Shown here: piece after piece, positions 4,463-50,943 of the stretch
Layout: each line of letters opens with the position of its first letter
How positions within the stretch are numbered: position 1 is the stretch's first letter
From: Desulfobacterales bacterium
GTDB taxonomy: Bacteria > Desulfobacterota > Desulfobacteria > Desulfobacterales > JAHDSC01
Direction: 5' to 3'
Assembly (NCBI GenBank): GCA_016931455.1
Contig: JAFGES010000074.1
Span: 1 to 56,633, forward strand
Length of the DNA stretch: 56,633 bases
The notes under the pieces: model-generated
The model's database searches: none
Told to the model about the DNA's origin: nothing
What the model saw: only the letters and a program-made list of their open reading frames with translations
Made by a program: the position numbers and the translations under genes

Positions 4463-4570
4463 TTCGGGTAGTTCAATTGGAGAAAATACTTATTTAAAAT
4501 TTAATAAAATATTAATATGTAAATATATCAATAGCTTGATTTCTATTATCAGATCGTGACAGGCTTATTT

Positions 4571-4586
4571 TGGCACAAATGTTGCT
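4571..4586 (+). promoter_or_regulatory. Sigma-54 (RpoN) promoter of the glnA operon
   Basis: TGGCAC, five bases, then TTGCT matches the -24/-12 consensus TGGCAC-N5-TTGC at every defined position and with correct spacing. The start of transcription would fall near 4597, giving a leader of about 170 bases before glnA. It is the only sigma-54 match I found in the interval and would put glnA through hisF under nitrogen or other enhancer-protein control. Confidence 0.88.
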
Positions 4587-4600
4587 TAAAACTTTCGACA

Positions 4601-4623
4601 AACAACGTTGTTGACCGATCGGT
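4601..4623. promoter_or_regulatory. Two adjacent perfect palindromes at the predicted glnA transcription start
   Basis: AACAACGTTGTT (4601-4612) and ACCGATCGGT (4614-4623) are perfect palindromes of 12 and 10 bp separated by one base. They start about four bases after the predicted +1 of the sigma-54 promoter. They could be repressor operators or form a structured 5' end of the mRNA. No known operator is recognised. Confidence 0.45.
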
Positions 4624-4645
4624 TACTATTGTTGCCGGGGGGTTT

Positions 4646-4701
4646 GGTTATTGGTTATTGGTTATTAGTTATTAGTTATTAGTTATTAGTTATTAGTTAA
4701 T
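4646..4701 (+). repeat. Heptanucleotide tandem repeat in the glnA leader
   Basis: Eight contiguous 7-base units: three GGTTATT, four AGTTATT and a final AGTTAAT. It lies between the sigma-54 start and the glnA ribosome-binding site (GAGGT, about 4758-4762). Such short tandem arrays change copy number by slippage, so leader length may vary between strains. It is not a CRISPR: units are contiguous and only 7 bp. Confidence 0.9.
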
Positions 4702-4768
4702 GGTATTATAGAAGTGCCGAATTAATTTAGCAAAATAAATTTAAAATTTAAGAATTCGAGGTGTAAAA

Positions 4769-6103
4769 ATGGCAAAAAAAGACAAAGATTATGTGCTTAA
4801 ACAAGTGAAAGACCGGAATGTGAGATTTATTCGTCTTTGGTTTACGGATGTGCTGGGTTTTTTGAAAAGCTTTGCGATCTCGCCCGCTGAATTGGAACTT
4901 GCATTTGAAGAAGGCATGGGTTTCGACGGCTCGTCGATAGAAGGTTTTGCAAGGATTGAAGAAAGTGATATGGTTGCCAAACCGGACCCGGCTACGTTTA
5001 CGATTCTCCCCTGGCGAGCTAGTGAAAATATGAATGTGGCTCGAATGTTTTGCGACATTCTCAATCCGGATGGAACCCCGTATGAGGGTGATCCTCGCTA
5101 TGCGTTGAAACGTAATCTGAAAAAGGCTGCGGATATGGGTTTCCAGTTATATGTGGGACCGGAACTGGAGTTCTTTTATTTTAAAGATTCTTCGCCTAAA
5201 CCGCAAATATTGGATCATGGCGGCTACTTTGATTTAACCCCATTGGATGTTGCCAGTGATTTGAGAAAAGATACGATCTTGGCCCTGGAGGCTATGGGGA
5301 TTCAGGTAGAGTATAGTCACCACGAAGTGGCACCCAGCCAGCATGAAATCGATCTGCGTTACACGGATGCGCTTGCTATGGCGGATGCGGCAATGACTTA
5401 TCGCTTGACGGTCAAAGAAATTGCGATGAAGCATGGCGTCTATGCCACGTTTATGCCCAAACCCATTTTCGGTCAGAACGGTAGCGGCATGCATGTCCAT
5501 CAGTCTCTTTTCAAAGGCAGCGAAAACGCTTTTTTTGATTCAAATGATAAATATTATCTGAGTGAAACCGGAAAAAGCTATATCGCCGGGCTTTTGAAGC
5601 ACTCTAAAGAGATAGCATCGGTTGTCGCCCAGTGGGTTAATTCATATAAGCGGCTGGTACCGGGTTATGAAGCACCGGTTTACATTTCATGGGCGCGCAG
5701 GAACCGATCGGCTCTCATCCGTGTTCCTATGTATAAGCCGGGCAAAGCAAACGCCACCCGTATGGAATTTCGCTGCCCGGATCCGGCGTGCAACCCTTAT
5801 CTGGCCTTTGCAGTCATGCTGGCAGCCGGTCTGAAGGGAATTGAAGAAAAATATCAGCTCTCCAATCCGATTGAAGAAGATATTTTTGAGATGAGCGCGG
5901 CTGAGCGCGAGAGCAAGGGGATTGATTCTTTACCCGGCAGTTTGGGTGAAGCCATAGCCTTTACGGAATCCAGTGATCTTGTGCGGGAAGCACTAGGGGA
6001 TCACATCTTTGAAAAGTTTCTGATGAACAAAAAAATCGAGTGGGATAATCATCGAATACAAGTCACTAACTTTGAACTTGAAAAATATCTACCGATCCTT
6101 TAG
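4769..6103 (+). CDS. glnA: Glutamine synthetase, GSI-alpha type
   Basis: Type I glutamine synthetase, 444 residues, forming glutamine from glutamate, ammonia and ATP. Recognisable segments are MGFDGSSIEGFARIEESDM (about 50-68), GPELEFFYF with metal-binding glutamates, and NGSGMHVHQSLF. Length fits the short GSI-alpha form. Arg62, the glutamine feedback-inhibition residue of Bacillus-type enzymes, is at the expected position. The adenylylation-loop Tyr is replaced: the segment reads EEDIFEMS with Phe373, so control by GlnE-type adenylylation is not expected. An AGGT-like RBS lies before the ATG. First gene of the sigma-54-driven operon; the next gene starts 4 bases after the stop. Confidence 0.97.
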   Translation: MAKKDKDYVLKQVKDRNVRFIRLWFTDVLGFLKSFAISPAELELAFEEGMGFDGSSIEGFARIEESDMVAKPDPATFTILPWRASENMNVARMFCDILNPDGTPYEGDPRYALKRNLKKAADMGFQLYVGPELEFFYFKDSSPKPQILDHGGYFDLTPLDVASDLRKDTILALEAMGIQVEYSHHEVAPSQHEIDLRYTDALAMADAAMTYRLTVKEIAMKHGVYATFMPKPIFGQNGSGMHVHQSLFKGSENAFFDSNDKYYLSETGKSYIAGLLKHSKEIASVVAQWVNSYKRLVPGYEAPVYISWARRNRSALIRVPMYKPGKANATRMEFRCPDPACNPYLAFAVMLAAGLKGIEEKYQLSNPIEEDIFEMSAAERESKGIDSLPGSLGEAIAFTESSDLVREALGDHIFEKFLMNKKIEWDNHRIQVTNFELEKYLPIL

Positions 6104-6107
6104 TGAA

Positions 6108-6824
6108 ATGAAAAAGGCACTCATCATAACCCATGATGAATCGGAAGGACCCGGTACATTGGGAGATTTTCTAAACGGTTTTGGTTTATCCGTGCGAACC
6201 GTAAGGCTTTACAATGGTGAAAGTCTCCCCGGTAATGTTGCCGGCTATGATGCCATTGTAACAATGGGGGGGGCGATGAGCGTCAATGAAGAATATCTTT
6301 ATCCCTTTTTGGCTAAAGAAAGAGTGTTTTTAAAAGAAGCAATCGATGGTAACATTCCTGTTTTGGGTATCTGCTTAGGTGCCCAGATGATTGCAAAGGC
6401 TTGTTACGCTTCGGTAGGCCGGGCCCCTGAAAAAGAATTGGGCTGGAGAAATGTCTCCCAGACGGAATTAGGCCAAAGAGATATTCTCTTTCAGGGGCTT
6501 CCGGCTAACTTGCAGGTATTTCAGTGGCATAATGAAAGTTTCGAGGTTCCTCAAGGAGGATCACTTCTTGCCACTTCAGCAAAGTGTCCGAATCAGGCGT
6601 TTAGATATCGAAATGCATATGGCCTTCAGTTTCATATTGAGGTAACGCGTGACATGCTGATCGAATGGTTGGACACGGAGCCTGAATGCGAAGCCTGCAT
6701 TCAATTTTTTGAAGAAATAGAACATGATTTTTATACCCAGGCCAGAATGATATACGCAAATTTTTTGTGGTTCATTGATATTTGCAAGTCTTATGGGAGT
6801 AAAATGTGCGGCAAAGATCTTTAG
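6108..6824 (+). CDS. Class I glutamine amidotransferase (GATase1) protein
   Basis: A 238-residue stand-alone glutaminase-fold protein of the GMP-synthase-amidotransferase-like group. The nucleophile elbow GICLGAQMIAK places the catalytic Cys at about residue 89, and LQFHIEVT supplies His and Glu of the triad. The ATG at 6108 begins a typical MKKALIITHD strand; a longer in-frame form from 6072 would overlap glnA and has no support. Only four bases separate it from the glnA stop, so translational coupling is likely. It is commonly annotated as a 'GMP synthase-like' protein, but no synthetase domain is present. It may supply ammonia to a partner or hydrolyse a gamma-glutamyl compound; the substrate is unknown. 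Confidence 0.85.
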   Translation: MKKALIITHDESEGPGTLGDFLNGFGLSVRTVRLYNGESLPGNVAGYDAIVTMGGAMSVNEEYLYPFLAKERVFLKEAIDGNIPVLGICLGAQMIAKACYASVGRAPEKELGWRNVSQTELGQRDILFQGLPANLQVFQWHNESFEVPQGGSLLATSAKCPNQAFRYRNAYGLQFHIEVTRDMLIEWLDTEPECEACIQFFEEIEHDFYTQARMIYANFLWFIDICKSYGSKMCGKDL

Positions 6825-6856
6825 CCGTCCGGAATTAAGATAAGAAGGAGTCTTTG

Positions 6857-7948
6857 ATGTGTGGTATCGTTGGAATTATCAACACCGATAGAAAGCTCAT
6901 TGATGGAAATTATATTCGAGAGGCCATACGGATTCAGAGAGAAAGAGGAAATGGCTTGGGGGGTGGTTTCGCCGTATATGGCGCCTACCCTGAGAATAAA
7001 GATAAATACGCCTTTCACATTATGTATGAAGGGAGTCAAAACAATCCTTATATTTCGATGGTTGAAGATTACATCCGAAGTCGGATGGTTATTTACCATT
7101 CGGAACAAATTCCGGTTTATCCGAATGATCGGATTCCAAGAGGTCCTTATTTCAAAAGGTACTTTCTTAAGCCGCTTGCCGAGTTTTTAGCACCTGAGCA
7201 AACCGAAGAGGATTATATTGTCGAAGTTGTGATGGCTATTAATAAAATGGAAGGCGCTTTTGTTGTATCCTCGGGGAAAAACATGGGGGTATTTAAAGGA
7301 ATGGGATATCCTGAAGATATTGCAGATTATTTCAGGATTGAGGATTACCGGGGATATATGTGGATTGCTCATAACCGGTTTCCGACCAACACTCCGGGAT
7401 GGTGGGGCGGTGCTCATCCCTTTACCATTCTTGATAAAGCCGTTGTTCATAATGGTGAAATCACTAGTTATGGAACCAATAAAAGATGGCTTGAAATGTA
7501 TGGTTATTATTGCATGTTGCAAACCGATACGGAAGTAATTTCATATATTTACGACAAGCTCACAAGAGGTGATAAACTGCCGCCCAAAGATGCGTGCTAT
7601 GTTATGGCGCCATCCTTGTGGGAAGATATTGATCGCACAGGGGATGAAAAAAAGAAAAATTTGAGGCAGATTTACGGTCCTGCAATTGTAAATGGACCTT
7701 TCGGGATCGTTTTATCACATTCCAATGGAGCCATTGTGTTAAATGATAGAAACAAACTTCGTCCGGTTGTCTGCGCCAAAGCGGGAAATACCTTTTATGC
7801 GTCGTCGGAAGAGTGCAGTATCCGCTTGCTGTCTCCCGATGTAGACAATCTTTGGTCACCCCGAGGGGGAGAACCGGTAATCATTGATTTTTCCGTAGAG
7901 GATACTCAAGAACTGAGAGGAAGGAAAGCACAATGGTCTCTATGGTGA
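6857..7948 (+). CDS. Glutamate synthase glutaminase domain (split GltB, GATase II)
   Basis: A 363-residue class II amidotransferase corresponding to the N-terminal domain of large glutamate synthase, here as a separate polypeptide as in archaeal-type enzymes. The protein starts MCGIVGII, so the catalytic Cys follows the initiator Met; an AAGGAG lies 6 bases before this ATG. Other family landmarks are HNRFPTNTPGWWGGAHPF and VVHNGEITSYG. It releases ammonia from glutamine for the FMN subunit encoded next. The stop is TGA, but the domain is complete and an in-frame stop follows shortly, so this is not a selenocysteine codon. Confidence 0.9.
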   Translation: MCGIVGIINTDRKLIDGNYIREAIRIQRERGNGLGGGFAVYGAYPENKDKYAFHIMYEGSQNNPYISMVEDYIRSRMVIYHSEQIPVYPNDRIPRGPYFKRYFLKPLAEFLAPEQTEEDYIVEVVMAINKMEGAFVVSSGKNMGVFKGMGYPEDIADYFRIEDYRGYMWIAHNRFPTNTPGWWGGAHPFTILDKAVVHNGEITSYGTNKRWLEMYGYYCMLQTDTEVISYIYDKLTRGDKLPPKDACYVMAPSLWEDIDRTGDEKKKNLRQIYGPAIVNGPFGIVLSHSNGAIVLNDRNKLRPVVCAKAGNTFYASSEECSIRLLSPDVDNLWSPRGGEPVIIDFSVEDTQELRGRKAQWSLW

Positions 7949-40555: not shown

Positions 40556-40897
40556 ATGGAATTTTGGCGGGTTCCACTGGATGTGGATGAAATACAAATT
40601 ACACGGGGTATTGTGTATATTATAGAAAATCGCTGCAAAGGTTGCGGATATTGTATTCAGTTCTGTCCACGACAAATTTTGGAATTTTCACCCAAGTTTA
40701 ATCAGAAGGGTTATCATCCGCCGGTGGTGAAAAATTCCGATGATTGTGTAAACTGCCATTACTGTGAAATTATATGCCCGGAATTTGCTATATATTCCGT
40801 TGAAGTCTCTGATGAACTCTCTGACTCGTATAATGAGATAGGGGATGATAATGAATTCAATGAGGAAGTGAATGGAAAAAGCAATCCTCACAGGTAA
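40556..40897 (+). CDS. korD: 2-oxoglutarate:ferredoxin oxidoreductase delta (ferredoxin) subunit
   Basis: A 113-residue 2x[4Fe-4S] ferredoxin. The motifs are CKGCGYCIQFCP and CVNCHYCEIICP, followed by an acidic C-terminal tail. GGAAGGGG precedes the ATG. It overlaps korA by 26 bases. In this enzyme family it carries electrons between the thiamine subunit cluster and external ferredoxin; here the downstream Hdr proteins are possible partners. Confidence 0.9.
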   Translation: MEFWRVPLDVDEIQITRGIVYIIENRCKGCGYCIQFCPRQILEFSPKFNQKGYHPPVVKNSDDCVNCHYCEIICPEFAIYSVEVSDELSDSYNEIGDDNEFNEEVNGKSNPHR

Positions 40898-42017
40898 ATA
40901 CTATATGACAGGTGACGTTGCTTGCGCTGAAGGAGCACTGGCGGCGGGTTGCCGTTTTTTCGGCGGATATCCTATAACTCCGGCCACTGAGATTGCCGAA
41001 CGCATGGCGGTAAGGCTCCCGGAAGTCGGTGGAACTTTCATTCAAATGGAAGACGAAATCGCTGCGATGGCCACTGTGCTAGGTGCCTCTTGGGCGGGTG
41101 TCAAGAGTATGACGGCTACCTCCGGCCCGGGTTTTAGCCTGATGATGGAAAATATCGGATTGGGGATCTGTACGGAAACTCCGTGCGTTGTGGTAAACGT
41201 GCAGCGCGGTGGTCCTTCCACGGGCCTGCCGACACAAAGTGCTCAGGGGGATATGATGCAAGCACGGTGGGGTTCACATGGCCATTATGAGATCATTGCG
41301 CTTGCCCCTTCCTCTCCTCAGGAAATTTTTTATCAGACGATCACCGCCTTTAATCTGAGCGAAACTTACCGTCTGCCGGTTTTGATAATGAGTGACGAAA
41401 TTATCGGTCATATGAGTGAACGGGTGGTTATCCCGGATAAAAAGGACATTAAAACATTGTGTAGACCCAAGCCCAAGGGTAGGAAAGATCGATTTAAGCT
41501 TTATGAACCCGGGCCCAATGGAGTAGCTGCCATGCCTGCGGCCGGTGAAGGCTATAACGTGCATGTCACCGGTCTTACCCATGATGAAAAAGGTTATCCG
41601 ATTTTGACGGTAGAAACACAGATGGAAATGATCACCCGTCTGACAGCCAAAATTTCTAAGAATTTAAACGATATTATCCAAACGGAACCTTATTTTCTGG
41701 ATGATGCCGAAATGGTCCTCATATCTTACGGCGTTTCCGCTCGAACAAGCCTGGCTGCCGTTGACATCGCCCGCAAGCAGGGAATTAAAGTAGGACTTTT
41801 GCGTTTGATTACCGTTTGGCCTTTTCCGGAGGAGCAGATTTGTGAATTGGCGGAAAGGGTTAAAAGATTTATAACCGTGGAAATTAACATGGGGCAAATC
41901 CATCGCGAAGTTCAGCGTTGTGTTGGTGGAAAAGCACCGGTTTCCTTGGTCGGACACCCGGGTGGTACAATTATTCCTCCGGATCGAGTTGTCGAAAAGT
42001 TAAAGGAGGCCTTTTGA
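40872..42017 (+). CDS. korA: 2-oxoglutarate:ferredoxin oxidoreductase alpha subunit
   Basis: A 381-residue subunit of the pyruvate/2-oxoacid:ferredoxin oxidoreductase family. It has the N-terminal pyrimidine-binding domain (GYPITPATEIAE near 40, QMEDEIAAMATVLGAS near 60) and the transketolase-C-like domain (about 265-381). The order D-A-B-C with a fused alpha subunit fits 2-oxoglutarate or branched-chain 2-oxoacid specificity; KorA is the closest family, but substrate is not proven by sequence. It ends 3 bases before korB. Confidence 0.9.
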   Translation: MEKAILTGKYYMTGDVACAEGALAAGCRFFGGYPITPATEIAERMAVRLPEVGGTFIQMEDEIAAMATVLGASWAGVKSMTATSGPGFSLMMENIGLGICTETPCVVVNVQRGGPSTGLPTQSAQGDMMQARWGSHGHYEIIALAPSSPQEIFYQTITAFNLSETYRLPVLIMSDEIIGHMSERVVIPDKKDIKTLCRPKPKGRKDRFKLYEPGPNGVAAMPAAGEGYNVHVTGLTHDEKGYPILTVETQMEMITRLTAKISKNLNDIIQTEPYFLDDAEMVLISYGVSARTSLAAVDIARKQGIKVGLLRLITVWPFPEEQICELAERVKRFITVEINMGQIHREVQRCVGGKAPVSLVGHPGGTIIPPDRVVEKLKEAF

Positions 42018-42020
42018 ATC

Positions 42021-42869
42021 ATGGCGGATAAATTGCGTGCAGCCAAGAAACAACCCGACCATCCATTGGATGATCTTCTGCGCAGAGATCGAATCCCTCA
42101 TATCTGGTGTCCGGGATGCGGAATTGGAACCGCTTTTTCTTCATGCTTGAATGCAATCAAAAGCAGCGGTCTTGAACGTAAAAATGTAGTGATGGTTTCG
42201 GGAATCGGTTGCTCGGGGCGTGCTGCCGGCTATGTCAATCTGGATTCATTTCATACTACCCACGGTCGGGCTATTCCATTTGCTACCGGGTTGAAACTGG
42301 GTAACCCGGATCTTAACGTCATCGTGTTCAGCGGTGACGGCGATTTATTTGCTATCGGTGGAAACCATTTGATTCATGCCGCCAGGCGCAATATGGACAT
42401 GACGGTAATTTGTGTGAATAATCTCAATTACGGCATGACCGGTGGGCAGGTGGCAGCCACAACCCCGAACATGGCCAAGACAACCACAACGCCGCGGGGA
42501 AATCCGGAGACACCTTTTAATCTCCCCCATATTGCCTATGCAGCCGGAGCGACTTTTGTGGCCAGATGGACGATATTAAACACCCGTGAGATTACTAAAT
42601 CAATAGAAGAAGCCTTGTTAAAAAAAGGATTTTCCTTCATCGAAGTCCTTTCTCCTTGTCCCATAAATTATGGGCGGCGCAACAAGGAATCATCTCAGGA
42701 TACGCTGAAATTATATCAGGAGAAGACGATTATCAAAAATGGTGCCCATCCATCCGAAATCGATATTGATCCGGAAAAAGGCATTATTTTGGGCAAATTT
42801 GTCGATTTGCAGCAGCCGACATATATTGAAAAGTATGATAAAATTTGCCGAAGTCTGATGAATCATTAA
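42021..42869 (+). CDS. korB: 2-oxoglutarate:ferredoxin oxidoreductase beta (TPP) subunit
   Basis: A 282-residue thiamine diphosphate subunit with a proximal [4Fe-4S] cluster. The TPP motif starts at GDGDLFAIG and ends at the NN of CVNNLNYG. The cluster Cys pair is visible in WCPGCGIGTA. It catalyses oxidative decarboxylation of the 2-oxoacid to acyl-CoA, or the reverse carboxylation, depending on metabolism. Confidence 0.93.
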   Translation: MADKLRAAKKQPDHPLDDLLRRDRIPHIWCPGCGIGTAFSSCLNAIKSSGLERKNVVMVSGIGCSGRAAGYVNLDSFHTTHGRAIPFATGLKLGNPDLNVIVFSGDGDLFAIGGNHLIHAARRNMDMTVICVNNLNYGMTGGQVAATTPNMAKTTTTPRGNPETPFNLPHIAYAAGATFVARWTILNTREITKSIEEALLKKGFSFIEVLSPCPINYGRRNKESSQDTLKLYQEKTIIKNGAHPSEIDIDPEKGIILGKFVDLQQPTYIEKYDKICRSLMNH

Positions 42870-42897
42870 CACAGGCTGTTAAATTAGGTTTAAATAT

Positions 42898-43503
42898 ATG
42901 ATCAATGCGCAAGATGAACATCGTAGAACAAAAGAAATTATCCTGACGGGTTTTGGTGGACAGGGAATTATTCTGGCCGGACGGATCCTTGGAGAGGCAG
43001 CTGCTTTAGGTGATCACCGCGAAAGTACGTTTATCCAGTCCTATGGCCCGGAATCCCGCGGGGGTGCGTGCAGTGCTCAGGTCATTGTTTCAGATGATAT
43101 TATCCATTACCCCTATGTCAAACACCCGGATATTCTGATATGCATGTCTCAGGTAGGGTATGAAAAGTTTATCGGGACAATGAAACCCAACGGAATTCTG
43201 CTGATTGATCAGGATCTGGTTCACCCGCGAAGTAAGAAACAAGATTTTTTTTCAATCCCGGCTACGCGAATGGCCGAAGAATTAGGGCATAAAATGATGG
43301 CCAATATTATTATGCTCGGCTTTTTAACCGCCGTTACGAAAGTGGTGTCCTTGAGTGCAGCCCAAAAAGCGGTTTCAAAATCAGTACCGGAAGGTACAAA
43401 AGAAATCAACATTCATGCTTTTAATAGAGGATGTGATTATGGTCAGGCGAAGCTCAAGGGACGGGCAAAAAAAGCGATCGGTCAAACAGGAGCCATTTTA
43501 TGA
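42898..43503 (+). CDS. korC: 2-oxoglutarate:ferredoxin oxidoreductase gamma subunit
   Basis: A 201-residue gamma-domain subunit. Family features are TGFGGQGIILAGRILGEAA near residue 17 and the segment QSYGPESRGGACSAQVI near 45. It is the last Kor subunit. Its stop overlaps the start of the following HdrA/GltD gene by 4 bases (ATGA), which ties the Kor and Hdr parts into one translational unit. Confidence 0.92.
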   Translation: MINAQDEHRRTKEIILTGFGGQGIILAGRILGEAAALGDHRESTFIQSYGPESRGGACSAQVIVSDDIIHYPYVKHPDILICMSQVGYEKFIGTMKPNGILLIDQDLVHPRSKKQDFFSIPATRMAEELGHKMMANIIMLGFLTAVTKVVSLSAAQKAVSKSVPEGTKEINIHAFNRGCDYGQAKLKGRAKKAIGQTGAIL

Positions 43504-46500
43504 AACATCCGAAAGATCGGCTTCATAAAGTTATTGTCATTGGTGCAACACCTGCGGGAATTACGGCGACCAATAAGCTGGGGGAACTCGGCATTCCCGT
43601 CACCCTTATAGATTCCGATACGGATTTGGACTGGAAACTTTCGCAAAGCGATTGGAAATTAAAATCGGGTGTGCCCTTTAATCATGCACATCGACCAGGG
43701 CTTTTAAGAATCATGCGTAACCCTGGAATCCAATGCGTTATGCCGGCTGAAATTACCTCTATCAAGCATACGCCTCAGGGATTTAGAGTCGGTCTGAATA
43801 AGCTGCAGACATTTGTTGATTCAGAGCGTTGTACCCTTTGCGGCCGTTGTGTCGAAATCTGTCCGGTATCAATCAATGAATTAGAAAAAGCGGTTAAAAT
43901 TAATAGTCGACGAAGTCTACCCGGACGTCCTTTTATTGATAAACGGAAGCAACCCCTTTGCCAGGCCGATTGTCCACTCGGTGTGAACGTACAGGGTTAT
44001 ATTGCGCTAGCAAAAGCGGGTCGATTTAAAGAAGCTTTGGAGCTGATACGCAAAGATAACGTTTTGCCTGGAATATGCGGTCGCGTTTGTACGCATCCGT
44101 GTGAGAATGCATGCCGCAGGGGCGAACTCGATGAAACGGTTGCCATCAGAGATATCAAGCGGTTTGTTGCCGATTATGAACTTTCACACCCGGAAGAGTC
44201 CAAACTGCCGAATATTGATCGGAAGACGAAAAAGATTGCCGTCATCGGCTCCGGGCCTGCCGGTTTAGCGGCTGCAGCAGACCTGGCCAAGCACGGCTAC
44301 CGGGTAACTGTTTTTGAAAAGGAAAGCATGATCGGTGGGTTGCTTCGTTATGGTATCGGTCCCTATCGGCTTCCCAGAAATATTCTCGATGTTGAAATCG
44401 AATATATATCCAAATTAGGAGTGAAATTTATTACCTCACGGTTTGTCGATCTGTCCAAAGACATTTCCGAACTTAAAAAAGATTTTGATGCCGTCATTCT
44501 GACTGCCGGAACATGGGCTGACGGTATGCTGGGTGCTCCGGGAGAAAAATTGTCGGCGGTTGAAGGCTGTCTATCTTTTTTACGCAGATTTTATCGTGAT
44601 GAAATCAAGGAATTAAACGGGAAGACAGCAGTGATCGGCGGGGGTGATTCCGCCATTGATGCCGCTCGTTGCCTGGTTCGATTAGGTGTGACCCCAACGA
44701 TTTTATACCGTCGGCGCCTGCAGGATATGCCGGCTGATTTTACTGAAATCAGGGCGGCGCAAGAAGAGGGTATTGAGATCAAAGACTGTACTCAGGTCGT
44801 CGGGTTTATAGAAAAAGACGGCAAACTGGATCGGTTGCAATGTATGCCCACCCAACCGGGTAAACCGGATGCACGGGGAATCCCTTCGCCGGTTATATTG
44901 CCCGGCAGCATACCCTTTGATCTTCAGTTTGAACGGGCGATTGTCGCAATCGGTCAGACCGGAGCGTTTAAGAATATTTGTCCCGAATATGAATTAAACA
45001 TCACTGATCAAGGCCTTATCGCGGTGGATGAATGTATGCGCACCCATATGCCGGCAGTCTATGCGGCAGGGGATGCGGTTTCAGGCCCGTCTACCGTGGT
45101 TGAAGCCATGGCCTCCGGTAGAGCCGTTGCATGCCGGGTTCATAAGGATCTTCATCCGGCGCAGGAATGGAATCTGCCAACCGTAAGACCGATGGATAAA
45201 GAATTTCCTGAAATTCCAAAAGACATCCCATCGCTGGCGCGGCCGACCATGCCCGAAATGCAGCCGACGGTTCGGCGAAATAATTTTTCGGAAGTCGCCT
45301 TAGGATTTACTGAAACCCAGGTAATTTCCGAAGCCGAACGCTGCCTGCAATGCGGCGTTTGTTCCGAATGCCTTCAGTGCGTTGAAGTTTGTGAGGCAAT
45401 CGGCGCAATAAACCATCGGCAATCGGTTGAGAGCAGCATTGAACATGCAGGAGCGATTATTATCGCAGACCCGGACATAGCACTTCCGATCAAGGGGGAG
45501 GATGTTATCCGGGCCTACGGTCCTAAAGCCGCCAAATCAGATCTTAACGCTATGATTCTGAGGGGTTTTGCTGCAGCGGCAAAGGCCATGACTTTGTTGG
45601 GAGAAACATCACAACGCCTAAAAGGGCACGGAATTTCTTTTTCCCCTCCTGATCCGGGACTTTCGCCTGAAATTAGACTCGGAGTTTTTGTTTGCCGATG
45701 CAATGATTCGGTCGGTTGGCTTGAACGTATGAGTGAATATGCAGAGAATCTGAAGTCACGCGTGGATGTCGTTCATGCTCAAACCTTATCCGCAGCTTGT
45801 TTACCTGAAAGTTCGGCCGGAATTTTGAGAATCATTCGTGAAAAAGGGATCACCCGGGTCGTCCTTGCCGCTTGTGTATGTTGTCCGTTGAATTTCGTCT
45901 GCAGTGCCTGCACGCAGCAGCGAAGTCGACTCAAAGATGCCCTGTTTACCGGTACGGGAATCAGTCGTTCGATGGTCGAAACATGCAATATAAGGGGTGA
46001 AGCCCTAAGAATTATCAAGCAGGATGCCGGCAGAGCATTTAGTAGATTTACCGGTATGATGGAGCGTTCGATCTCAAGGGCTAAAAAATTAAAACCGCTG
46101 CCTTCACCGGCACGAAATTATAATTTTGCCACAGCGGTTATCGGTGCGTCTGAAGCGGCAATTCACAGCGCTGTGACCCTGGCGGAATCGGGTTTTGAAG
46201 TTTTTGTTTTCGATGCCTCCGACCCGTCATTATCGCAAGTACCTGATCATCCGAATATTCACAACTTTCAGGGTACCACGGTTAAGGAGTTAAGCGGTAC
46301 GTTGGGTGATTTTCAGGTTGTTGTTGAATCGAGCGATTTTAAGCAGGCGATACCGGTCGGCGCCGTTATTTTAAGCGAAAAATCAAGAAAAAATATTCAG
46401 TACATCCATCAGGAAGAACTTCCCGGCCACTTTATAAAATCTTCGCTCCAGAAAGAAGGGGTCACGGGTATTCCCTTCTTTTATCCCGGGTCTACGGCCA

Positions 46501-46868
46501 TTGCCGGTCTTTATCTGGCGGATCCGCCCGGTATCAGCGTTTCTAAAAAACAGAAAGGCGCTGCGGCTGCCGTCCTGACCGCGACGGTTATGCCCCGTGG
46601 ACCGCGGCAGAGTAAGGGTTTTACGGTTGTAGTAGATGCAACGTTATGCCGCGGATGTGGACGCTGTATTCAAGTCTGCCCATATCAGGCGGTTACTTTG
46701 AAGCGCAATGAGATCGGCGGATGGAATGCTTCTGTGGATGAAGCCTTGTGCAAGGGATGTGGTAATTGTATTTCCGTCTGTCCTTCAAATGCAGCGGACA
46801 GCCCTTATCGTAATCAGGCGTTTCTTGAGCAGATGCTTGAGGAAGTTTTAGAAGGAAAAAATGAATAA
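43500..46868 (+). CDS. Composite HdrA-like/GltD-like iron-sulfur flavoprotein
   Basis: A 1122-residue protein of unusual architecture. Residues 1-100 are a dinucleotide fold (VIVIGATPAGITA). A ferredoxin motif (CTLCGRCVEICP) follows, then a GltD/NfnB-like module (about 145-560) with its Cys-rich Fe-S segment (CQADCPLGVNVQ, CGRVCTHPCENAC) and two dinucleotide motifs (VIGSGPAGLAAA, VIGGGDSAIDAA). Next is a Cys cluster (CLQCGVCSECLQCVEVC). Beyond about residue 720 it resembles an HdrA N-terminal domain plus a second, degenerate flavin fold. Two ferredoxin motifs (CRGCGRCIQVCP, CKGCGNCISVCP) close it. Likely role: NAD(P)H-linked electron branching within a Kor-Hdr complex. It overlaps korC by 4 and the next gene by 8 bases. 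Confidence 0.8.
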   Translation: MKHPKDRLHKVIVIGATPAGITATNKLGELGIPVTLIDSDTDLDWKLSQSDWKLKSGVPFNHAHRPGLLRIMRNPGIQCVMPAEITSIKHTPQGFRVGLNKLQTFVDSERCTLCGRCVEICPVSINELEKAVKINSRRSLPGRPFIDKRKQPLCQADCPLGVNVQGYIALAKAGRFKEALELIRKDNVLPGICGRVCTHPCENACRRGELDETVAIRDIKRFVADYELSHPEESKLPNIDRKTKKIAVIGSGPAGLAAAADLAKHGYRVTVFEKESMIGGLLRYGIGPYRLPRNILDVEIEYISKLGVKFITSRFVDLSKDISELKKDFDAVILTAGTWADGMLGAPGEKLSAVEGCLSFLRRFYRDEIKELNGKTAVIGGGDSAIDAARCLVRLGVTPTILYRRRLQDMPADFTEIRAAQEEGIEIKDCTQVVGFIEKDGKLDRLQCMPTQPGKPDARGIPSPVILPGSIPFDLQFERAIVAIGQTGAFKNICPEYELNITDQGLIAVDECMRTHMPAVYAAGDAVSGPSTVVEAMASGRAVACRVHKDLHPAQEWNLPTVRPMDKEFPEIPKDIPSLARPTMPEMQPTVRRNNFSEVALGFTETQVISEAERCLQCGVCSECLQCVEVCEAIGAINHRQSVESSIEHAGAIIIADPDIALPIKGEDVIRAYGPKAAKSDLNAMILRGFAAAAKAMTLLGETSQRLKGHGISFSPPDPGLSPEIRLGVFVCRCNDSVGWLERMSEYAENLKSRVDVVHAQTLSAACLPESSAGILRIIREKGITRVVLAACVCCPLNFVCSACTQQRSRLKDALFTGTGISRSMVETCNIRGEALRIIKQDAGRAFSRFTGMMERSISRAKKLKPLPSPARNYNFATAVIGASEAAIHSAVTLAESGFEVFVFDASDPSLSQVPDHPNIHNFQGTTVKELSGTLGDFQVVVESSDFKQAIPVGAVILSEKSRKNIQYIHQEELPGHFIKSSLQKEGVTGIPFFYPGSTAIAGLYLADPPGISVSKKQKGAAAAVLTATVMPRGPRQSKGFTVVVDATLCRGCGRCIQVCPYQAVTLKRNEIGGWNASVDEALCKGCGNCISVCPSNAADSPYRNQAFLEQMLEEVLEGKNE

Positions 46869-48462
46869 TTTTAACATCATTTTGTTCGCATGTAACTGGG
46901 GCCCGCATACGGCCTTTCAAACCTTACAGGACAATGGGGCTGAAATTCCCCCTGAAGTAAAAATGGTTCGAATTCCCTGCACGGGAAGAATCAGCAAAGC
47001 CCTTTTGTTTAAAGCCTTTGAAATGGGGGCCGATGGGGTTGTGCTTGCCGGATGCCGCCCCGGAGCCTGCCGTTACGGTAGCGGTACGGACATCGCCGAG
47101 AAAAATACCGAGGATACGCGCGAGATTCTCGAACTTCTTGATCTAAAAAAAGAGCGTTTGCGGTTTGCAACTTTTTTTCCGGATGATTCAGATGCCTTAT
47201 TAAAATTTCTAAATGATTTTTGTAATGAAATCAGGTTGTTGGGTCCGAGCCCGGTAGTTGCCACCCGAAAGTCTGATCTTAAGAACTCAAACAAGAAGCA
47301 GGGATTAAACAAAAAAGAGGTTGCGGAAGTTATTTCCATTCATGACATCTATGCATGTCAGGATTGCGGCAAATGTACATCCGCTTGTCCGCTGGCATTG
47401 ATGGGAAAACCTTTTTCTCCGCGTATGATCGCTAGTTCAATTATCGCCGGAGACATTGATTCACCCTCCGTCAAGGAAAATATTTGGGCTTGCCTGACCT
47501 GCGGTCTTTGTTATGATCGTTGTCCTTCGGCAGTAAACTTTCCTGAATTTATTCGTGATATTCGCCGGCTTTTGAGAAAAAGCCATTTAGAGGGGCATGA
47601 AACCCATGGGGGATTTTTTCAGTCTCTCATGCGAACACTGACTTCCCCGAAACTCAAAACCAAACATTGGGAATGGCTGCCGGCAGATATTCGATGGGAC
47701 CCACAAAGCAAGGTTCTTTTTTTCGGCGGTTGTGCGCCGTATTTTGATATATTTTTCAGGAATCATCTGGGGGTTCAGACCTCTAATGCGCTTAGCGATA
47801 GTTTGCGCCTGCTTAATTTTTTTGATATTAAACCGGCTATTTTGCAAGACGAACGATGCTGCGGTCATGATCTTCTCTGGTCGGGTGATCAGGAGAACTT
47901 CTTGAAGCTTGCCAAATTGAACGTCAGTGCAATTCATCGCCGTGGCATTGAAGAGGTGATTACCACATGCCCTGAATGTTACCGGACGCTGAAACACGAT
48001 TATGCTCGCTATGGCGTTGAAATTAATTTTAAGGTTACCCATATCTATGAATTGCTTGAAAGAGAAATCGACAAAGGGGCTGTGGGTTTTAAAAAGATTG
48101 ATAAAAAACTGACGTTTCAGGACTCATGCCGCTTGAGCCGTCTTGAACAACAGGCGGATTGGCCCCGAAATTTGATCAGCCGCCTGAAACCGGATCAATT
48201 TCGAGAAATGCAGGACAGCGGCAGTGCGGCGATTTGTTGCGGTAATTGCGCCTGGACCGGATGTGACTCTTTCAGCAAGGCTCTGCAGGTAAAGCGCCTG
48301 AGGCAAGCCCATGATACGGAAAGTGATATTTTGGTCACTTCCTGTCCTAAATGTCAAATTCATCTGCGTTGTGCTATGGAAGATCCTTTTTTGGGTGAAG
48401 AACTCAACATAACGATGATGGACTTAACGAGCATTATTGCGAAAACCATTTGCTGGGAATAA
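46861..48462 (+). CDS. MvhD-HdrC-HdrB fusion protein
   Basis: A 533-residue fusion. Residues 1-140 are MvhD-like (ILFACNWGPHTA, VRIPCTGR, GCRPGACRYG). Residues about 160-240 are HdrC-like with two [4Fe-4S] motifs (CQDCGKCTSACP and CLTCGLCYDRCP). Residues about 285-530 are HdrB-like with two CCG domains (DERCCGHD...CPECYRTL and ICCGNCAWTGC...CPKCQIHL), the ligands of the noncubane clusters at which disulfides are reduced. In the MvhD part the second Cys of the usual CNWC is Gly, so its [2Fe-2S] cluster may be altered or absent. All three modules are normally separate subunits. Confidence 0.85.
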   Translation: MNNFNIILFACNWGPHTAFQTLQDNGAEIPPEVKMVRIPCTGRISKALLFKAFEMGADGVVLAGCRPGACRYGSGTDIAEKNTEDTREILELLDLKKERLRFATFFPDDSDALLKFLNDFCNEIRLLGPSPVVATRKSDLKNSNKKQGLNKKEVAEVISIHDIYACQDCGKCTSACPLALMGKPFSPRMIASSIIAGDIDSPSVKENIWACLTCGLCYDRCPSAVNFPEFIRDIRRLLRKSHLEGHETHGGFFQSLMRTLTSPKLKTKHWEWLPADIRWDPQSKVLFFGGCAPYFDIFFRNHLGVQTSNALSDSLRLLNFFDIKPAILQDERCCGHDLLWSGDQENFLKLAKLNVSAIHRRGIEEVITTCPECYRTLKHDYARYGVEINFKVTHIYELLEREIDKGAVGFKKIDKKLTFQDSCRLSRLEQQADWPRNLISRLKPDQFREMQDSGSAAICCGNCAWTGCDSFSKALQVKRLRQAHDTESDILVTSCPKCQIHLRCAMEDPFLGEELNITMMDLTSIIAKTICWE

Positions 48463-48507
48463 GTGTCGCGGTGAGTTGAGGCGGATTAACATTTATTAGG
48501 AAGTAAA

Positions 48508-50943
48508 ATGAAGAATAATATTCTTACAACAACATCTATAGATGCGAAACAGCAAGCGCGAATCGGCGTATATATCTGCCACTGCGGCCTGAATATCGCA
48601 CAGACGGTCGATTGCCCTCAAGTGGCGGAAAAAGCCTCCGGTTTGGATAATGTGGTTGTTTCCAAAGACATTACCTATGCTTGTTCGGAACCCGGGCAGC
48701 AGGAAATCAAAGATGATATTTTAGAACACGGATTGAACCGAATTGTGGTGGCCTCTTGTTCACCACGGTTGCATGAGCCTACTTTTCGTCAGATGCTCCA
48801 GTCCGTCGGGCTCAATCCTTACCTTCTTGAAATGGCCAATCTTCGAGAACAATGCAGCTGGGTGCATATGCATGAGCCGGCTGCCGCTACGCAAAAGGCT
48901 ATCGATTTAGTAAAGATGGCGGTTTCGCGGGCCCAATTGCTTGGGCCGCTTTATGAGGAAACGCTTCCGCTTACAAAACGAACCCTTATCATCGGAGCCG
49001 GGGTTGCCGGCATACAGGCGGCCCTAGATCTTGCCGATAACGGCTATGATGTTGTTTTGGTGGAGAAACAACCATCGATCGGCGGTATGATGGCACAGTT
49101 GGATAAAACCTTCCCCACCATGGACTGCTCCATCTGAATTCTCGGTCCGAAGATGACGGATGTCGGTCGACATCCCCGAATAACCCTTCACACGCTAAGT
49201 GAAGTTGTCGGTATTAAAGGCTATGTGGGTAATTTTGACGTCAGAATCGTAAAAAAAGCGCGCTACGTAGATGAAAAAGAATGCACGGCTTGTGGTGAAT
49301 GTGCCAAGGTATGTCCGGTGGTCCGTCCGGATGAATTCAACGTGGGACTTTCATCACGCAAAGCGATTTATTCGCCGTTTCCGCAAGCCGTCCCTTCTGC
49401 TTATGTAATTAATATCAAAGAGTGTCTCGGTCATAATCCTTCGGTATGTTCCAAGTGTATTGAGGCCTGCGATAAGGGTTGTATCAATTTTGACATGTCG
49501 GATGAAGAATTTGTGGAAAGGGTCGGTTCCATTATTGTAGCTACCGGCTTGGAAGCATATGATCCTACTGAACTGGACGAATATGGATATACACGGTTTG
49601 AAAATGTAGTGACCAGTCTTGAATTTGAGCGTCTCGTTAATGCCGGCGGGCCTTCAAAGGGAGAATTGATTCGCCTGACGGACAGAAAACATCCCAAATC
49701 CATTGGTTTTATTCAGTGTGTCGGTTCGCGTTCGGCGCGTAAAGGCAGTGAGTATTGTTCCAATATCTGTTGCATGAACACCGTCAAAAGCACATTGCTG
49801 ATCAAGGAACATTATCCTGAAACCGATATCAAGGTTTTCTATATTGATATTCGTGCGTTTGGAAAAGGATTCGAAGAACTCTACAAGCGCAGCCGGCGAT
49901 TGGGCGTTCATTACTTGAGGGGATTGCCCGGAAAAATTGAAGAACTTCCTGATAAAAGCCTACGGGTTGCGGTCGAAAATGCTTCTACAGGGAAATTGGA
50001 ATTTCATGATCTGGACATGCTGGTTTTGGCTGTGGGTATCAAACCGGCAAAAAGCACCCAGCGACTTCAGGAGATGTTGGGACTGCAGTTGACATCCGAT
50101 GGATTTTTTCTGGAAGCTCATCCCAAGCTCCAACCGGTGGATGCCGCTACTCGTGGTATTTTTTATGCCGGGTGCGCTGAGAGCCCCAAAGATATTAAAG
50201 ACAGCGTTACGCAGGCCTCGGCGGCATCGGCACGCGCCATTCGACTGATGCATAAAGGGGAAATCAGCTCCGAACCCATAACCTCCGAGGTGATTGCCGA
50301 TCAATGTAAATCATGCGGTAAATGTGTCGATGTTTGCCCCTACAATGCCATCAGTGTGGATACCAAGAAAAAAACACCGGCTGTGATCAATACCGCCGCT
50401 TGTGCCGGTTGCGGCAACTGTGCGGCCGAGTGCCCCTTTGGCGCTATCACCATGAACCATTTCACCGATGACCAGATTATCAATCAGATCGATGCCATGC
50501 TCAGTGAAAAACCTTCGGAAAAGGTATTGGCATTTGCCTGCAACTGGTGTTCTTATGCCGGGGCGGATTATGCAGGGGTATCCCGCCTACAATATCCGGC
50601 CAGCGTGCGTTTGATTCGAACCATGTGTTCCGCTCGAGTGGATGAAAGCTTTATCTGGCATGGATTCATGAAGGGGGCGCCGGTTGTGCTGGTCAGCGGT
50701 TGTCATATCGGCGATTGTCACTATATCAATGCCAACCACTGGACGGAGAAAAGAGTGAATAAGGTTCGGAAAAAAATGGAGAAACTGGGCCTGCGACCGG
50801 AACGACTTCAGCTGGAATGGATCAGTGCGGCGGAGGGGATTCGATTTGCCGAAGTGATGCGTCGGATGGAAAAACTTCGTCGGGAAGTGTCGAAAGAGGA
50901 AATTGAAAAGACGATCAGTATTCTTCAAAATCGAAGAAAGTAG
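48508..50943 (+). CDS. hdrA: Selenocysteine-containing HdrA with C-terminal MvhD domain
   Basis: An 811-residue HdrA read through an in-frame UGA at 49135-49137 (Sec210). The N-terminal Cys-containing domain (IGVYICHCGLN) leads to the FAD fold (IIGAGVAGIQA), then TMDCSI-Sec-ILGPKM. The family normally has Cys at this place, and coding continues in the same frame with normal HdrA sequence (TDVGRHPRI). Ferredoxin motifs follow at CTACGECAKVCP, CKSCGKCVDVCP and CAGCGNCAAECP. Residues about 670-811 form an MvhD domain with intact CNWC, MCS and GCHIGDCHY. HdrA carries the bifurcating FAD. The RBS is AGGAAG. If UGA were a stop, only a 209-residue stub would be made. Confidence 0.92.
49142..49179 (+). 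promoter_or_regulatory. Bacterial SECIS-like element for HdrA
   Basis: Directly after the UGA, GGATGTC (49158-49164) and GACATCC (49169-49175) form a perfect 7-bp stem around the loop GGTC. TCGG (49142-49145) and CCGA (49176-49179) can extend it below an internal loop. The apical loop holds the GGU found in the loop of the E. coli fdhF SECIS and lies 27 bases after the UGA, within the usual bacterial range. The element is inside the coding sequence, as expected for SelB-dependent recoding. Confidence 0.85.

Follow-up and report, generated by a model that had tools for sequence, protein, structure and literature searches.

The stretch of DNA analyzed here (the window, 56,633 nt) is contig JAFGES010000074.1, positions 1-56,633 of the forward strand, from the assembly GCA_016931455.1 of Desulfobacterales bacterium (JAHDSC01). 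Between positions 40556 and 50943 it carries a compact run of seven plus-strand genes which, as read from open reading frames (ORFs), overlap or are narrowly spaced. They encode the four subunits of a 2-oxoacid oxidoreductase, KorDABC, an HdrA/GltD-type composite (HdrL), an MvhD-HdrC-HdrB fusion and an HdrA-MvhD fusion with a selenocysteine (Sec). This cassette is conserved and is very probably a functional unit. We propose, with a probability of about 0.5, that its seven products could make up a single soluble machine for electron coupling, with KorDABC standing in place of the MvhAG hydrogenase or formate dehydrogenase of known HdrA complexes. The features are as follows:

40556..40897, plus strand: korD, ferredoxin-like subunit of 113 aa with two [4Fe-4S] motifs (Pfam Fer4)
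40872..42017, plus strand: korA, 2-oxoacid oxidoreductase alpha subunit of 381 aa (Pfam POR_N and PFOR_II)
42021..42869, plus strand: korB, thiamine pyrophosphate (TPP)-binding beta subunit of 282 aa (Pfam TPP_enzyme_C)
42898..43503, plus strand: korC, gamma subunit of 201 aa (Pfam POR)
43500..46868, plus strand: hdrL, HdrL-type composite (HdrA/GltD, HdrA/Nfn) of 1122 aa (Pfam Fer4_20 and Pyr_redox_2)
46861..48462, plus strand: mvhD-hdrC-hdrB fusion of 533 aa (Pfam FlpD (MvhD), Fer4_8 and two CCG domains)
48508..50943, plus strand: hdrA-mvhD fusion of 811 aa with selenocysteine at residue 210 (Pfam FlpD and Fer4)
49135..49137, plus strand: in-frame UGA read as selenocysteine, codon 210 of the frame that starts at 48508, at a motif position common to all 48 readable type-1 and type-2 loci (types are defined below)

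In the window, korD overlaps korA by 26 nt, korC overlaps hdrL by 4 nt and hdrL overlaps the MvhD-HdrC-HdrB gene by 8 nt. Pfam and NCBIfam results agree with the names assigned to all seven genes. An earlier note made from the sequence alone had described this same run, from korDABC to the Sec-HdrA-MvhD gene, and the ORFs lie exactly where it placed them. It had also remarked that the operon holds no hydrogenase or formate dehydrogenase; indeed, no catalytic subunit of either enzyme was found by Pfam among the seven cassette proteins. Likewise, no Flx-type gene was seen within the cassette, judging by its ORFs and their Pfam and NCBIfam matches.

Conservation of the seven-gene cassette

HdrL was searched for in 58 relatives and in 395 genomes of the phylum, the window genome being in both sets. 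A close orthologue with at least 53% identity (type 1) was found in 40 genomes (15 of the 58 and 29 of the 395, four being shared), and a distant one with 35-38% identity (type 2) in 13 genomes (12 of the 395 plus G016). The sequence around HdrL, up to ~8 kb on each side, was fetched and searched with the seven cassette proteins. Wherever contigs were uncut, the seven-gene order recurred in the 40 type-1 and 13 type-2 genomes.

The gene korC is located directly before hdrL in 38 of 38 testable type-1 loci (G018 and G059, whose contigs start just before or inside hdrL, were excluded), at a spacing of -4 to 7 nt with gene starts picked by script, and the two genes overlap in 29 loci. Thus, for the close set, the gene-neighbourhood search contradicts an Hdr set occurring mostly away from kor genes, the distribution that the earlier note had named as evidence against its proposal. 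The MvhD-HdrCB gene follows hdrL in 37 of the 40 measured type-1 loci (the G403 locus being split in two; G018 was left out). In the three loci lacking a match, L056, L088 and L090, the contigs end 833, 294 and 0 nt past hdrL, in L090 inside the gene. The 833 nt without a next-gene match in L056 exceed the spacings at all other loci, of which the longest is 484 nt, and this locus may differ from the standard cassette. An HdrA-MvhD match follows MvhD-HdrCB in all 37 loci, being cut by the contig end in L089; the 36 clean pairs left after exclusion of the L089 artefact show no overlap. Every cassette locus that is uncut before korD has its own KorD. The type-2 loci have the same gene order, with MvhD often appearing as a match separate from HdrCB; contig cuts leave korA incomplete in L094 and L100, and L100 is also cut after HdrCB.

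The 338 ORFs flanking the cassettes were clustered and read by eye, not individually scanned for hydrogenase or formate dehydrogenase, and no conserved flanking gene was present in more than 4 of 54 loci. Since the flanks are unconserved, the conserved unit is the seven genes. Four larger flanking clusters (14, 14, 10 and 9 loci) were judged, by their sequences and coordinates, to be cassette parts or antisense frames over the cassette.

These data bear on an alternative in which an ordinary 2-oxoglutarate:ferredoxin oxidoreductase and a separate ferredoxin-dependent Hdr/HdrL enzyme are co-transcribed and share a ferredoxin pool without forming a complex. The fixed gene order, the almost invariant distance between korC and hdrL in all 38 testable loci and the presence of the cassette's own KorD argue against such an operon, which we consider unlikely. 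In its favor, no Kor-Hdr gene fusion was found in the 90 fetched loci, the window genome has a second korABC without Hdr genes, kor genes occur without an Hdr match in six of 75 testable genomes (see below), and HdrA2B2C2 uses free ferredoxin (PMC5296606; for this and the other papers cited here, statements refer to those parts of the text that were available).

Kor and HdrA genes across the phylum

The window KorB retrieved 78 of the 395 genomes at E ≤1e-85. Three of these (G059, G175 and G106) are cut by contig ends; in 69 of the remaining 75, by hand tally, an HdrA-type gene is located beside the KorB relative, in several arrangements. The 78 genomes comprise 29 close cassettes, 12 distant cassettes and 5 cases whose HdrL match is shorter, split or contig-cut; 13 genomes in which korDABC is followed by HdrA-MvhD without HdrL (type 3); 11 genomes in which an HdrA without an MvhD part lies upstream of korDABC, one being cut before HdrA; one interleaved form (L140); six with kor alone (G304, G261, G282, G124, G068 and G141; no Hdr match within the fetched stretch); and one cut locus. 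Three loci were classified by hand, L127 and L131, both cut by contig ends, as type 3 and L149 as type 4. An HdrC match is present in all 11 uncut type-3 loci; the Pfam check for HdrB covered L130 only. In a KorA plus KorB tree, the kor-alone pairs are placed beside the type-1 clade (support 0.85), among type 2 (0.74) and next to L129 (1.0). These placements fit a loss of Hdr genes.

Some of the related clusters have further components. In L123, HdrC- and HdrB-type genes precede the HdrA gene upstream of korDABC, and the cluster contains a FAD_binding_2 (fumarate-reductase-like) protein. In L138 (G191), a SucC-type gene and two Pyr_redox proteins are located downstream of the kor/Hdr set. In L140 (G251), kor, hdr and Flx-like genes are interleaved, and one gene matches sulfhydrogenase beta models below their cut-offs.

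A sample of 25 genomes, hand-chosen and mostly cassette carriers, yielded 22 full-length HdrA-MvhD matches with at least 58% identity, 20 of them inside kor cassettes. The two others, in G049 and G187, bear a cysteine and lie among other Hdr genes. No match at this level was found in G071, G020 and G053, which have no known cassette, or in G074 and G130 (type 4). In this sample, more divergent HdrA genes are frequently located outside kor loci, as expected for the large HdrA family. In the window genome, the only HdrA match at E ≤1e-100 lies in the cassette, which also holds two of the three CCG-domain matches of this genome; the window organism is therefore a useful one.

KorDABC and its substrate

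The four Kor subunits carry the expected TPP and Fe-S motifs. The two-cluster motif of KorD is present in 37 of 37 type-1 proteins of at least 70 aa, and the GDGD...N motif of KorB in 38 of 38 type-1 and 11 of 12 type-2 proteins. KorA scored 575.7 bits against the generic 2-oxoacid alpha model PRK08659 of NCBIfam (cut-off 411), and its nearest solved chains are 1yd7 and then 8ys5, the latter named 2-oxoglutarate synthase. The best NCBIfam model for KorD was OGOR_delta, at 68.2 bits and below the cut-off of 125.

The earlier note had named the enzyme a 2-oxoglutarate oxidoreductase. The four-subunit architecture and the generic alpha model uphold the oxidoreductase part of this claim; its substrate is less firmly placed, since none of the four Kor subunits reaches the cut-off of a 2-oxoglutarate-specific NCBIfam model. 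This leaves room for another 2-oxoacid, for example one from amino-acid breakdown, and a machine serving that catabolism. Against it, the best beta and delta models are the 2-oxoglutarate ones, though below cut-off, 8ys5 is the second nearest solved alpha chain, three of the 54 loci have an isocitrate dehydrogenase-type gene nearby (L083 and L084, which belong to one genus, and L093, where it is above the model cut-off), and the SucC-type gene of L138 lies downstream of a related kor set. We regard another substrate as very improbable; Kor probably acts on 2-oxoglutarate.

Two other sets in the window genome, a second korABC whose KorA is 50% identical and a Vor-type set, have no Hdr neighbour and offer a useful contrast to the cassette. 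A selB gene is located near this second korABC (L161:8804-10714 and 4522-7102, contig C109).

The HdrA-MvhD fusion contains a conserved selenocysteine codon

The whole HdrA-MvhD protein scored 1204.8 bits against the HdrA2 model NF040770 (curated cut-off 1100), and residues 15-666 align with the HdrA chain of 5odc, a solved Mvh-Hdr complex (E 7.5e-239). The in-frame UGA at residue 210 sits in the sequence ...MDCSIUILGPKM..., and selenocysteine 210 aligns with position 197 of 5odc_A, the Cys197 ligand position. In HdrA, one ligand of the N-terminal cluster is supplied by the other HdrA protomer, and loss of Cys197 is mentioned for HdrA paralogues (PMC9012536). All readable loci, 36 of type 1 and 12 of type 2, have UGA within the identical motif; in L056, L088, L089 and L090 (type 1) and L100 (type 2), this part of the gene is absent from the contig. 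The flavin adenine dinucleotide (FAD) motif of HdrA, the cysteines of the inserted ferredoxin and the MvhD motif are each present in 35 of 35 type-1 proteins of at least 780 aa. For the paired C-terminal ferredoxin clusters, a strict pattern is matched by the window protein but by only 22 of the 35 overall.

The window genome encodes SelB (395.5 bits, cut-off 242). Its evidence for a selenocysteine tRNA (tRNA-Sec) and for a selenocysteine insertion sequence (SECIS) is weak: just one match to the tRNA-Sec model exceeds the cut-off of 47, with 49.8 bits; it is located at the end of a contig and spans model positions 12-82 out of 91, and ARAGORN reported no tRNA at this candidate. A putative SECIS hairpin folds no better than shuffled sequences (z ~0.1), and a SECIS element identified by folding was therefore rejected. 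Recoding of UAG or UAA in the HdrA paralogues of G187, G131 and G422 was rejected as well: in the aligned reading, the G187 gene has cysteine at this position and no stop, and in G131 and G422 the stops are located elsewhere.

Close HdrA-MvhD paralogues with cysteine in place of selenocysteine are found at L197:6939-9371 (G049, 75% identity) and L198:8974-11406 (G187, 67%). Both are inside other Hdr loci, and the fetched stretches of 18-19.5 kb gave no kor match.

HdrL combines partial HdrA-like units with an Nfn-type module

BLAST against HdrA-MvhD and structure comparison show that HdrL consists of two partial HdrA-like units and an inserted Nfn/GltD-type FAD/NAD(P) module. Residues 10-145 resemble the start of the thioredoxin-reductase/inserted-ferredoxin part of HdrA-MvhD (BLAST E 3e-14), while two further stretches, residues 724-940 and ~992-1098 (E 2e-15 and 4e-12), resemble the HdrA N-terminal domain, a second Rossmann part and the C-terminal ferredoxin. 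At the Cys197 position, the BLAST alignment to HdrA-MvhD shows no cysteine or selenocysteine in either HdrA-like copy. Both HdrA-like Rossmann motifs are degenerate, and the strict N-terminal FAD motif is found in 0 of 37 type-1 proteins.

The solved sequences nearest to the inserted module are 9bov, 9n5u and 8oh5. In an AlphaFold model (34 rows, mean pLDDT 84.4), residues 148 to ~630 match NfnABC and StnABC folds with Z scores of 45-48; Foldseek likewise points to an Nfn/Stn-like fold in this predicted structure. The FAD motif of the module is intact in the window, and its strict form is present in 26 of 37 type-1 proteins. The canonical pattern GGG[DN].A.D.AR was matched by just 3 of the 37. 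At the position of the NADPH-type motif, the window protein, L053 and L057 have YRR, whose arginines we take to be an NADPH-type signature, and the other 22 of 25 aligned type-1 rows have SWF. Among nine type-2 rows, YRR is present in five and an acidic motif in four. The variation between YRR, SWF and acidic motifs suggests that members of the HdrL family probably differ in, or have switched, their nucleotide partner. The use of NAD(P)H put forward in the earlier note is weakened accordingly, its motif being retained in the window protein and replaced in most close orthologues.

An RnfB-like protein of 696 aa fused to a GltD/NfnB-type module is encoded elsewhere in the window genome (L164:7204-9294, contig C98). 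It follows an rnf-like gene run, named by ORF reading, and could be an NAD(P)H module within Rnf.

The MvhD-HdrC-HdrB fusion

The AlphaFold model of this protein (25 rows, pLDDT 87.3) matches MvhD chains with Z ~22 and HdrB of the Elp-Hdr complex with Z 20.5. Matches to EtfD (Z 26.5) and to a LutA model (Z 23.0) scored above these. The two HdrB-type CCG cysteine patterns are canonical in the window protein; the strict form is present in 33 of 37 type-1 proteins, being missed in L081-L084, and in 11 of 11 type-2 proteins of at least 350 aa. The sole CCG-domain match of the window genome outside the cassette is a 689-aa protein (L163:8823-10892, contig C48) with a TfrB/HdrCB-like part that scores below the TfrB cut-off; it adjoins ETF-like genes, named by ORF reading.

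A proposed electron-coupling machine

In known HdrA complexes, MvhD is the electron carrier that links HdrA to its partner enzyme (PMC9012536). Among the forms examined, the number of MvhD domains tracks the number of HdrA-like proteins: there are two with HdrL and one in type 3, which lacks HdrL. This suggests that HdrA and HdrL form an asymmetric pair, each with its own MvhD. The subunits would form a complex around this pair, one MvhD being fused to HdrA and the other tethered to HdrCB. Low-potential electrons would pass in either direction between Kor, together with KorD, and the HdrA FAD; the Nfn-type FAD of HdrL would exchange hydride with a pyridine nucleotide, and HdrCB would exchange electrons with a disulfide or a similar acceptor. 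The net reaction, likely reversible, would be 2-oxoglutarate + CoA + dithiol + two NAD(P)+ <-> succinyl-CoA + CO2 + disulfide + two NAD(P)H.

The potentials are ~-0.52 V for 2-oxoglutarate and ~-0.32 V for NAD(P)H, thiol pairs being higher, so that low-potential electrons from Kor and high-potential electrons from thiols could meet at NAD(P), or part from it in reverse. A separate NAD(P)H module also makes sense in light of HdrA2B2C2, which moves electrons between ferredoxin and disulfide and in which NAD did not substitute for F420 (PMC5296606).

Several of the observations weigh against this machine. Fusion of Kor to Hdr parts, as said above, is absent from the fetched loci, and six genomes have kor alone. 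HdrL has degenerate Rossmann motifs, rarely fits the canonical GGG pattern and has SWF in most close orthologues. The 2-oxoglutarate models stay below cut-off, and two points discussed below count on the same side, namely the type-2 genomes lacking both dsrA and DsrC and the likeness of related clusters to reductive ones. The coupling machine of the earlier note is sustained as far as a widely conserved Kor-HdrL-HdrCB-HdrA cassette goes, and its idea of a complex is weakened by the lack of fusions. Taking these points together, we regard a physical Kor-Hdr complex as fairly probable and the full three-way mechanism, coupling Kor, pyridine nucleotide and disulfide, as tentative. It is possible, if somewhat doubtful, that the cassette stands for a class of HdrA machines with a 2-oxoglutarate oxidoreductase as the plug-in in place of hydrogenase or formate dehydrogenase and two flavin sites (the FAD of HdrA and the Nfn-type FAD of HdrL) within one complex, in which a step of the tricarboxylic acid (TCA) cycle would itself be confurcating or bifurcating in many Desulfobacterota.

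If this is true, many sulfate reducers and related anaerobes have a core step of carbon metabolism directly connected to flavin-based electron coupling. The energy bookkeeping of the carriers would change, energy-poor microbes would have a new energy-saving route, and one of the many HdrA/HdrL paralogues of open function would receive a concrete role.

Metabolic context and direction of the reaction

In the 395-genome sample, a dsrA match at E ≤2.6e-167 is present in 27 of 29 type-1 and 8 of 12 type-2 genomes, and most carriers of the close cassette look like sulfate or sulfite reducers by gene content. The gene is below this cut-off in the window genome (97% complete; best E 8.9e-11) and in G059 (66% complete). 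With the window genome and 4 of the 12 type-2 genomes lacking dsrA above the cut-off, sulfate reduction was rejected as the defining context. A DsrC with a CX10C tail, presumably a redox tail, is encoded in the window genome (L162:5348-5665, contig C117), which has no dsrA above the cut-off. Four type-2 genomes that are 90-100% complete (G160, G188, G245 and G342) have neither dsrA above the cut-off nor a DsrC match; DsrC therefore cannot be the universal disulfide partner and was rejected as the general partner of HdrB.

Citrate synthase is present in 36 of 39 type-1 genomes, including the window genome, and the Iso_dh family in 38 of 39 (G059 being left out of both counts), with three members in the window genome. 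Iso_dh is only suggestive, because this family mixes isocitrate and isopropylmalate dehydrogenases. Taken together, the two enzymes indicate that 2-oxoglutarate can probably be made oxidatively, and the carrier context appears to favor 2-oxoglutarate oxidation slightly. CdhC, the sole autotrophy marker tested in the window genome, gave no match at E ≤1e-60, a limit near the values of true members which a cut gene could escape. The Wood-Ljungdahl pathway is probably not required for the cassette.

The reaction could also run in the opposite direction, with electrons of NAD(P)H split at HdrA/HdrL between disulfide (through HdrCB) and Kor, and succinyl-CoA and CO2 converted to 2-oxoglutarate for a reductive TCA cycle or glutamate synthesis. 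Carboxylating bifurcation of this kind was proposed for the OGOR-Flx-Hdr of tubeworm symbionts (PMC6315080, PMC11636981; OGOR, 2-oxoglutarate oxidoreductase). Related Kor-Hdr clusters of our set resemble published reductive TCA clusters, which would favor the reductive direction there, and the fumarate-reductase-like protein of L123 and the SucC-type protein of L138 may point to this direction for those relatives. For the cassette itself we consider it improbable: citrate synthase and Iso_dh occur in most type-1 genomes, the cassette is probably not the sole route to 2-oxoglutarate, and the CdhC result in the window genome is as given above. The oxidative (confurcating) direction is thus slightly favored in the window organism.

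Comparison with known systems

In tubeworm symbionts and Thioflavicoccus, korABCD is interspersed with flxABCD-hdrABC and tfrAB (PMC6315080, PMC11636981). An OGOR-Flx-Hdr complex was proposed from gene order in the tubeworm symbionts (PMC6315080), and co-expression supports a kor-flx-hdr operon in Endoriftia (PMC11636981). The cassette is like this cluster in the direct linkage of Kor to HdrABC. The tubeworm-symbiont system takes NADH via Flx, whereas the cassette has an HdrA/Nfn composite, MvhD-HdrCB and Sec-HdrA-MvhD and no flx, tfr or acl genes. L140, mentioned above, resembles the published Kor-Flx-Hdr type.

The HdrA-, HdrB-, HdrC- and MvhD-type domains are shared with the methanogen complexes MvhADG-HdrABC and Fdh-HdrABC (5odc, 7bkb); in the cassette, Kor replaces hydrogenase or formate dehydrogenase, HdrL is additional, selenocysteine takes the position of Cys197 and MvhD is fused. 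HdrA2B2C2 of Methanosarcina acetivorans (PMC5296606) likewise has an HdrA-MvhD fusion, and the cassette protein is above the HdrA2 cut-off, but the former is archaeal and F420-dependent, and the text available describes no Kor or HdrL partner. The name HdrL goes back to work on Desulfobacterium autotrophicum (PMC2702500). That protein and HdrA9-11 of ANME-1 with their NfnB insertion (PMC9012536) also combine HdrA with a glutamate-synthase/NfnB-like module; HdrL is published as lying beside mvhD, fdh or dsr genes, and no kor partner is described in the text available. The NfnABC/StnABC transhydrogenases (9bov, 9n5u, 8oh5) share the fold of HdrL residues 148 to ~630; unlike them, the HdrL module is located inside an HdrA-like scaffold, and its nucleotide motif is altered in most relatives.

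No description of an HdrL-containing Kor cassette was found in the literature searched, which left subscription journals largely outside, and a 2021 review of HdrA(BC) may cover it. The available text of PMC5109826, PMC10553843, PMC12142623, PMC12137691, PMC8691401, PMC7382037, PMC4914600, PMC3267732 and PMC12542636 gives no account of it either. The earlier note had presented the complex as a candidate new one. An OGOR-Hdr complex is not a wholly new idea, having been proposed with Flx in place of HdrL (PMC6315080, PMC11636981); the HdrL-containing form is little described so far, as far as the accessible sources go. The cassette belongs with the HdrA family of machines, as a variant and not a new kind.

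Other features of the window

An Rfam scan of the whole window gave no match above gathering thresholds. The genes next to the cassette were named by ORF reading without a database search: chemotaxis genes are located upstream, and a UvrD/Rep-like helicase ORF lies 51 nt downstream.

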